Shown: positions 36,904 through 38,958 of the stretch, one piece after another
How positions within the stretch are numbered: position 1 is the first letter of the stretch
Layout of the letters: every line of letters begins with the position of its first letter
Assembly (NCBI GenBank): GCA_902610815.1
Contig: CACLXG010000001.1
Coordinates: forward strand, 467,573 to 531,572
DNA from: an uncultured Candidatus Actinomarina sp.
GTDB lineage: Bacteria > Actinomycetota > Acidimicrobiia > Actinomarinales > Actinomarinaceae
Reading direction: 5' to 3'
DNA length: 64,000 nt
Position numbers and translations under genes: made by a program
Notes under the pieces: model-generated
The model's database searches: none
What the model was told of the DNA's origin: nothing
The model's input: the letters and a program-made list of their open reading frames with translations, nothing else

Positions 36904-37239
36904 ATGGAAAGTGATAAATCAACTAATTTTTTTGAATTAGACATTCGTGTCGGGAAAATAATTAAGGCAGAAATTTTCAAAGAAGCTAAAAAACCAGCAT
37001 ACAAACTCACAATTGATTTTGGTAATTTAATTGGCACTAAAAAAACCAGTGCACAGATAACAAACTATAAACTAAATGAACTTCAAGAAAAGCCTTGTAT
37101 AGCAGTTATAAATCTTGGAAATAAACAAATAGGACCATTTATGAGTGAGTGCTTAGTTTTAGGATCAATTGCTGAAAATGGAGATGTACTATTACTTCAG
37201 CCATCCGACAAAGCAGAGCTTGGAGACAAAATTTCCTAA
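36904..37239 (+). CDS. csaA: CsaA-like tRNA-binding domain protein
   Basis: ELDIRVGKIIKAEIFKEAKKPAYKLTIDFG...SAQIT.YKLNELQEKPCIAVINLGNKQIGPFMSECLVLG. Confidence 0.9.
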   Translation: MESDKSTNFFELDIRVGKIIKAEIFKEAKKPAYKLTIDFGNLIGTKKTSAQITNYKLNELQEKPCIAVINLGNKQIGPFMSECLVLGSIAENGDVLLLQPSDKAELGDKIS

Positions 37240-37709
37240 CCTATTTTATTTTCGAAATACTTAGGATAAAATGTACCAACTCTTCTTCCAAGTTTTTCAC
37301 CTTGATTATTAATCAATACATATGTTGGAGTGTTGTTTAAGTTATATATATCAATAAACTCATGATCTTTTTGCTTACTTGCATTTATAGAAACAAAATA
37401 AACATCTGGATTTTTCTTTTTAAATTCATCAACTATGAATTTTGAAGCAGTGCAACCTAGTCAGTAGTCTGAGTAAAACTCAATGATTGAATATTGGTGT
37501 TCTGAAATGTTATAAGAGTCATCAACCATGTTCCTATTTGATGTATAAAGAATAAGGAATCCAAAAATACCCAAAACAAATAAACTAAGAAAATAAAGAA
37601 CAGTTATTGGTTCATAAGCAATAAAAATGATAGCAAGTCCGATAACCCATCCAGTAGGGAGATAAAGCAAACTATATCTGTTTAATATTCTAAGAAACTT
37701 TTTTTTCAT
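37236..37709 (-). CDS. Membrane-anchored thioredoxin-fold protein with in-frame TGA (candidate selenoprotein, UxxC)
   Basis: ATG 37707-37709 (MKKKFLRILNRY...) through ..SIIEFYSDY-TGA-LGCTASKFIVDEFKKKNPDVYFVSINASKQKDHEFIDIYNLNNTPTYVLINNQGEKLGRRVGTFYPKYFENKIG-TAG. The TGA (37461-37463) falls at the first Cys position of a CxxC motif and the frame stays open with Trx features after it. The track ends the ORF at this TGA. Confidence 0.6.
37422..37442 (-). promoter_or_regulatory. Candidate bacterial SECIS-like hairpin
   Basis: RNA AAAUUCAU-AGUUG-AUGAAUUU: perfect 8-bp stem starting 18 nt after the UGA, 5-nt loop with G as second loop nucleotide. Confidence 0.45.
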
Positions 37710-37743: not shown

Positions 37744-38154
37744 ATGGATTTCGTTAATGAATTACGAAAAAGAGGTAAAAGAATAACTAATGCAAGAGAA
37801 GTTGTTTGCAAAATTCTTGAAACATCTGGGCATAAGCACTTTACTGTTGAAGAGCTACATAAACTTTCATTAAAAAAAGATAAAAATATTGACTTAGCTA
37901 CTGTTTATAGAACTCTAGAACTTTTAGAAAATATAAATCTAATTGAACATTCCCACCAGGTACATGGCTCAGGACTATATTTTGTAAAAGATGTACATTC
38001 AAATATACATATTGTTTGTGAGTCTTGTGGAGACATTTCAGATCTTGATATAAAAACATCTGAAAAAGTAAATAATCTAATAACTAGTGAAACAAATTTT
38101 AGAGAGATAACAAATCACTTCGTATACTCAGGGTATTGCAAAAAATGTAAATAA
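37744..38154 (+). CDS. Fur-family transcriptional regulator
   Basis: RITNAREVVCKILE; DLATVYRTLELLENINLIEH; two CxxC zinc sites (CESC, CKKC). Start revised from 37714 to ATG 37744. Confidence 0.93.
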   Translation: MDFVNELRKRGKRITNAREVVCKILETSGHKHFTVEELHKLSLKKDKNIDLATVYRTLELLENINLIEHSHQVHGSGLYFVKDVHSNIHIVCESCGDISDLDIKTSEKVNNLITSETNFREITNHFVYSGYCKKCK

Positions 38155-38163
38155 ATCTTTTAT

Positions 38164-38178
38164 TGCAAATTATTTGCA
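38164..38178. promoter_or_regulatory. Putative Fur-family operator (7-1-7 palindrome)
   Basis: TGCAAAT-T-ATTTGCA perfect inverted repeat between the Fur-family gene and the ECF transporter. Confidence 0.7.
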
Positions 38179-38193
38179 TTAAGATAAACAAAT

Positions 38194-38958
38194 ATGGAAA
38201 CATCCCATTCTCATCATTTAGAAACTCATAGTGACTCGTATTTAGTAAAAATCAAACCCGAAATAAAATTACTTTCCTTTTTTGCAATTATTCTCTCTAT
38301 TGCCTTTTTGAGTTTGGAAAACAATGTTTCGGTTGTACTTCAAGCAGTAATAGTTGCGGGTTTATTGATTGTTTCAAAATTACAACTTAAAACATATTTA
38401 AAAAGACTTTCAATAGATATACCATTTGTATTGTTTGCCTTATTTTTACCATTTGTGAGTAAAGGGAATGGAGAAATCTTAACAAGTTTTTTCAATTTCA
38501 GTATTTATAAGACTGGAGTTGATGAAATGATATCAATTCTGATAAAAATCACTCTTTGTGTCACATTGGCAATTGTTCTTACTGCGACAACGTCTAATAT
38601 CGAAATAATATATGGATTACAGAAACTTAAAGTATCACCTTTGTTAATTTCTATATTTTCTTTTGCAATTAGATATATTGATGTATTCATTGACGAGGTA
38701 AAAAGAGTAAAAATATCAATGCGCTCAAGAGGTTATTCTGAAAAAGGAATAAAAACACTTAAACCCCTTGCTTTTGCATCTGGTGCCTTGTTGATTAGGG
38801 GGTATGAAAGAGGAGAAAGGGTTTATAATTCTATGATTTCTAGGGGCTTTAAAGGAACGTTAGAGCTAGAGGCACGAGAGTTTAATTCATCTAATTTAAT
38901 ATTTCTAATTTCCATATTTTCAATTGTAATTTGTATTGTAGATAGGTTCGTTTTATGA
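38194..38958 (+). CDS. ECF transporter T component (CbiQ/EcfT-like)
   Basis: SMRSRGYSEKG..., GERVYNSMISRGFKGTL are characteristic EcfT Ala-Arg-Gly-type motifs; His-rich N-terminus METSHSHHLETH. Confidence 0.88.
   Translation: METSHSHHLETHSDSYLVKIKPEIKLLSFFAIILSIAFLSLENNVSVVLQAVIVAGLLIVSKLQLKTYLKRLSIDIPFVLFALFLPFVSKGNGEILTSFFNFSIYKTGVDEMISILIKITLCVTLAIVLTATTSNIEIIYGLQKLKVSPLLISIFSFAIRYIDVFIDEVKRVKISMRSRGYSEKGIKTLKPLAFASGALLIRGYERGERVYNSMISRGFKGTLELEAREFNSSNLIFLISIFSIVICIVDRFVL

Follow-up and report, generated by a model that had tools for sequence, protein, structure and literature searches.

Locus organization and the in-frame TGA codon

The window analyzed here is a 64,000-nucleotide stretch of a contig from an uncultured 'Candidatus Actinomarina' sp., and it belongs to a 1.1-Mb genome. 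On its minus strand, a thioredoxin-like gene with a single in-frame TGA lies between a divergent gene for a Fur-family regulator and a convergent csaA gene that overlaps its end (Table 1). Under the standard code the frame stops at residue 82, and reading the TGA as selenocysteine (Sec, U) gives a 157-residue protein (MKKKF...SIIEFYSDY-U-LGCTASKF...NNTPTYVLI...). The original prediction, made from the letters of the DNA, had placed the TGA at the first residue of a (U/C)xxC thioredoxin motif, with a cis-Pro motif past it. Both are there, the latter as NNTPTYVLI in the translation. It had also counted about 75 open codons after the TGA; the frame is indeed open to the TAG, and the exact number is 74.

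Table 1 Features of the predicted selenoprotein locus (positions within the window)
Feature	Position	Strand	Details
Predicted selenoprotein gene, membrane-anchored thioredoxin-like	37236..37709	-	157 aa, Sec = residue 83; ATG start 37707-37709, TAG stop 37236-37238
N-terminal anchor, two predicted long helices (residues 2-31, 34-57)	37539..37709	-	AlphaFold2 model; hydropathy up to 2.55
Thioredoxin-fold domain (~residues 70-156)	37242..37502	-	UxxC + cis-Pro (P128, TPT); PF00085, Foldseek
Predicted Sec codon TGA, residue 83	37461..37463	-	position 1 of UxxC, YSDY-U-LGC
bSECIS-type hairpin AAAUUCAU-AGUUG-AUGAAUUU	37422..37442	-	frozen synonymous sites, covariation, loop common with SelW-like gene
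Fur-family regulator, divergent neighbour	37744..38154	+	PF01475, 84 bits; 34 bp between start codons
CsaA / tRNA-binding-domain protein, convergent neighbour	36904..37239	+	TIGR02222, over cut-off

The openness of the frame after the TGA was rejected as stand-alone evidence. Altogether 28 TGAs in the window, the present one included, have ≥45 codons open downstream and long open frames on both sides, and most of these cases are apparently not genes. The other 27 TGA-interrupted open frames of the window showed no obvious redox motif.

Conservation of the TGA and selection across it

The gene was found in 33 of 42 'Candidatus Actinomarina'-like congeners; all 33 copies carry exactly one TGA and none carries a Cys codon at this position. 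All eight congeners at ≥90% completeness have the gene, each with one TGA, and the nine congeners without a gene match are all below 90% completeness. The 156 remaining genomes of the class gave no match at E≤1e-8. Every close homolog has TGA, not Cys, at the same codon, both in the aligned congeners (18/18) and in the named Actinomarina-type loci (32/32), the latter from SAGs and MAGs; the closest named records are SAGs and MAGs of 'Candidatus Actinomarina' or Actinomarinales. The frame is conserved on both sides of the UGA: close homologs continue past it with no further frameshift or stop, and the block YSDY-U-LGCTAS across it is invariant. Median dN/dS values are 0.05–0.13 upstream and 0.08–0.12 downstream of the TGA, and purifying selection is equally strong in the two parts.

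These data bear directly on the caveat, raised with the original prediction, of a nonsense mutation or sequencing error, in which the TGA breaks a former Cys gene and leaves the part beyond it nonfunctional or pseudogenic. The TGA is one base away from TGC and TGT; however, the identical codon recurs in each of the 33 genomes and each of the 32 named loci, consistently so in over 30 SAG and MAG assemblies; the Cys state is absent, no other disruption is present, and downstream selection matches that upstream. Because the TGA is conserved, we regard this explanation as refuted and extremely unlikely.

Genome-wide reassignment of UGA to Trp or Gly would also let the UGA of this gene be read through, and UGA has been reassigned in some streamlined bacteria. 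However, as had been predicted, TGA is a normal stop elsewhere: it ends sdhC, sdhB, and other genes, and it terminates 16 of the 63 open frames of ≥150 codons in the window. In one relative, the ortholog of the present gene itself terminates with TGA (L057, 2501-3019), so that UGA seems to have both meanings, Sec and stop, within a single gene. The full Sec machinery in the genome (see below) argues in the same direction. Since TGA is an ordinary terminator, reassignment is refuted, and its probability is practically negligible.

A SECIS-like hairpin downstream of the UGA

The predicted 8-bp hairpin (AAATTCAT-AGTTG-ATGAATTT), with its loop 26 nt after the TGA and G at loop position 2, was recovered at the expected site, starting 18 nt after the UGA. 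In the bacterial SECIS (bSECIS) model, an apical loop of 3–9 nt with G in the first two loop positions is carried by a stem of 4–16 bp and lies 16–37 nt from the UGA (PMC13188914). The 8-bp stem, the AGUUG loop, and the 26-nt distance fall within these ranges. Taken alone, the hairpin is weak evidence. The warning that an AT-rich genome produces such hairpins by chance was justified, given that 2.99% of the TGAs in the window are accompanied by a bSECIS-like hairpin of ≥8 bp. Hairpin energy was rejected as evidence as well: the fold z-scores (-0.37 and +0.62) are near zero, meaning that shuffled sequence folds just as stably.

Comparison across relatives was more informative and showed a conserved hairpin with one compensatory change. 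In codons +8 to +11 (TTC/CTC ATA GTT GAT/AAT), the synonymous third-base difference is 0.0, compared to a gene mean of 0.38 per codon, and the six codons starting at +6 form the most constrained stretch of the whole gene. Paired cells make up 92.9% of the alignment of the stem, and sliding the pairing by one column reduces this value to 61% or less. Alignment pair 25-39 is U-A in 22 sequences, U-G in three, and C-G in three, which, judged from the alignment, is a compensatory change from U-A to C-G with U-G intermediates. Informative variation is confined to three of the eight stem pairs, with a double change in only one, and in 16 of the 28 sequences the outermost pair does not form.

Selenocysteine machinery and other selenoprotein genes

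A complete Sec gene set (selA, selB, tRNA-Sec, and selD) was found in the same genome. The selA gene scores 386 bits (cut-off 268) and tRNA-Sec scores 75.4 bits (gathering score 47). Directly downstream of selA is a full-length selB homolog (L010 1447-3126; aligned residues 3-542) that scores 194 bits against the NCBIfam cut-off of 242. We count it as SelB below the cut-off but adjoining selA; as a consequence of this low score, annotation by such models may overlook the Sec trait of the genus. The machinery is present in most or nearly all of the congeners searched, whose genomes are incomplete (tRNA-Sec: 28/29; selD: 28/29; selA over cut-off: 24/29).

Three further genes of the genome have an in-frame TGA. 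The first is selD itself (L089, G000:C3:142000-143700; YSHGSG-U-ACK), with a possible CAG-GUU-CUG hairpin; the TGA is present in all 28 genomes having selD. The second is a SelW-like gene (L087, G000:C3:111754-111969; MEIKLEFCVV-U-NYTPRAV) with a CVVU motif, found in 27 of 29 congeners and with TGA in all 27. In the genus this gene has a hairpin 17 nt after the UGA with the loop AGUUG or AGUUA, and these loops are common to it and the thioredoxin-like gene. The third is an AhpD-like/peroxidase-related gene (L088, G000:C4:99225-99413; CEYU), in which the frame stays open for ~104 more codons. Together with the present gene, these TGA codons indicate four or more selenoprotein genes; the count comes from family searches and is a minimum. 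The PF00578 peroxiredoxin-family genes of the genome, checked for in-frame TGA, had none.

A conserved hairpin 3′ of a leaky stop would look the same if the UGA were read by a near-cognate tRNA such as Trp in programmed read-through, with the hairpin serving as a read-through element, and the codon context here, UGA-C, is a leaky one. However, the TGA occupies the catalytic Cys position beside an invariant resolving Cys, a homolog with Cys at the UGA position exists (see below), and at least three other TGA genes in the genome belong to known selenoprotein families, one of them with the same hairpin loop. We consider near-cognate read-through very unlikely.

What stands above chance is the conserved TGA, the selection past it, the frozen synonymous sites of the hairpin, and the Sec machinery, not the hairpin or the open frame alone. 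We estimate a probability of about 96% that the gene encodes a selenoprotein with Sec at UGA codon 83, in a membrane-tethered thioredoxin domain with the redox role proposed below. At this codon, the ribosome would be expected to insert Sec via SelB and tRNA-Sec, guided by the downstream hairpin.

Protein fold and predicted function

With U read as C, residues 69-143 match the thioredoxin family PF00085 (Pfam) at 25.5 bits, above the curated cut-off of 23.5. The AlphaFold2 model (mean pLDDT 83, with low confidence for residues 1-20) combines two long N-terminal helices with a thioredoxin fold, and the latter matches thioredoxins in Foldseek (E about 1e-7, probability 1.00, TM-score to target 0.7–0.77). 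Based on the Pfam score and on a fold with both (C/U)xxC and cis-Pro, we assign the domain to PF00085. Its score against the thioredoxin equivalog TIGR01068 was 28.9 bits, below the curated cut-off of 96.8. The NCBIfam selenoprotein models SaoT (NF040730), HUIPC (NF047660), and GOS_C (NF045500) describe thioredoxin-like UxxC proteins, as here, but gave no match to the present protein at E≤1. Standard gene calling truncates the protein after residue 82, so that the catalytic half is missed, and no NCBIfam model covers it.

The two N-terminal helices are hydrophobic and are predicted to tether the thioredoxin domain to the membrane. The N-terminus is positively charged, with five K/R in the first 11 residues, and the turn between the helices is acidic; by the positive-inside rule, this pattern means that the domain probably faces the cytoplasm. 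Sec83 would be the attacking residue, replacing the first, nucleophilic Cys of a CxxC motif, with Cys86 as the resolving residue. Given this replacement and this resolving residue, the protein would most likely act as a fast thiol/selenol-disulfide oxidoreductase cycling via a selenenylsulfide. Under selenium shortage, translation would halt at residue 82, leaving the membrane anchor alone.

Distant homologs

Searching 397 genomes of the phylum yielded eight distant matches outside the class, and all five of these loci that were read (L103–L107) have TGA at the aligned position. The motifs of these distant Actinomycetota are YSDYUAAC (L103 and L104), YADWUGAC (L105), YSETUPIC (L106), and APWUPAC (L107, where the match itself began after U). 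A bSECIS-like hairpin with its loop ~26 nt after the UGA is present in L103, L104, L106, and L107, and L105 has only a 4-bp candidate. L103 and L104 are the ones that resemble the present gene in full-length alignment, long hydrophobic N-terminus, and a loop 26 nt after the UGA, whereas they differ in sequence (26–28% identity), gene neighbourhood, and the loop itself (GGUCG). The N-termini of L105 and L106 resemble a lipoprotein signal, and such relatives may therefore work outside the membrane. Because the distant homologs carry TGA, Sec at this position either predates the genus and extends beyond it or was acquired several times. A Chloroflexota MAG (L077) has a homolog with Cys (YSDYCAGC, 34% identity), which completes a Sec/Cys pair; it is one clear Cys homolog, from another phylum.

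Relation to known selenoprotein families

A 2026 inventory of 119 prokaryotic selenoprotein families includes thioredoxins and several UxxC thioredoxin-like families (PMC13188914). The present protein shares with the Sec-containing thioredoxins (PF00085, UxxC; PMC13188914) the thioredoxin fold, Sec as the first residue of the redox motif, and a bSECIS element inside the coding region, but it differs from them by its two-helix membrane anchor, its own motif (YSDYULGC), and its low PF00085 score (25.5 bits). Among the UxxC thioredoxin-like selenoproteins it is a new, so far uncatalogued member, carried on a predicted two-helix membrane anchor.

One set of marine metagenomic families has to be weighed against this novelty. 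We take cd02950, the domain used in describing one of them, to be the TxlA family. The Global Ocean Sampling (GOS) survey (PMC2398784) describes 'Trx-like 3' as a UxxC family of 212 sequences with weak cd02950 similarity (domain E>0.001), found in 33 samples and commoner in marine ones; it gives 321 sequences for 'Trx-like 1', and SelW-like, SelD, and AhpD-like 1 rank among its most frequent marine selenoproteins. The present family may already be catalogued as 'Trx-like 3' or 'Trx-like 1', with only the host being new. 'Trx-like 3' is similar in being UxxC, thioredoxin-like, marine, and abundant, and the Actinomarinales are exclusively marine epipelagic (PMC7771536). However, the comparison is one of descriptions, the main text passages (PMC2398784) name no organism, and no NCBIfam selenoprotein model matches the present protein. 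We give this identity a serious chance, somewhat short of even, and otherwise treat the family as uncatalogued.

The gene set found here fits the list in the GOS passages, and part of the GOS reads may therefore come from Actinomarina. With this result, at least some of the selenoproteins abundant in marine metagenomes gain a likely host, and an uncultured group of plankton is linked to a requirement for selenium. The result also shows that 'Candidatus Actinomarina', a group of streamlined marine bacteria, has a full set of genes for selenocysteine use; our literature search returned no paper linking Actinomarina or OCS155 with selenoproteins or selenocysteine; the main text of the Actinomarinales genome paper makes no mention of selenium (PMC7771536). 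A wider joint reading is conceivable, though in its entirety rather unlikely. Here, a free-living actinobacterial lineage, among the most streamlined of its kind, would have kept the entire Sec pathway for a few redox proteins (at least SelD, the SelW-like and AhpD-like proteins, and the present thioredoxin). The thioredoxin would be obligately Sec (never Cys in the genus) and controlled by the adjacent Fur-family regulator, and Actinomarina would be a main source of orphan Trx-like, SelW-like, and AhpD-like selenoproteins in surface-ocean metagenomes.

Gene neighbourhood

Divergent from the selenoprotein gene, window positions 37744-38958 contain fur followed by cbiQ (cobalt ECF transporter T component), an arrangement kept across the genus. 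It is possible that fur-cbiQ and the selenoprotein gene are under common metal or redox control. The conservation of the divergent Fur-family gene suggests control of the selenoprotein gene by iron or peroxide; scored against the Fur and PerR models, this regulator stays far short of either cut-off. All 32 named loci share the gene order cbiQ-fur (divergent), selenoprotein gene, csaA, and FMN reductase. One of these loci, L066 (JAKVCV010000044.1), is filed under a Saprospiraceae MAG and has the Actinomarina gene order, and this placement most likely reflects a binning error or contamination.
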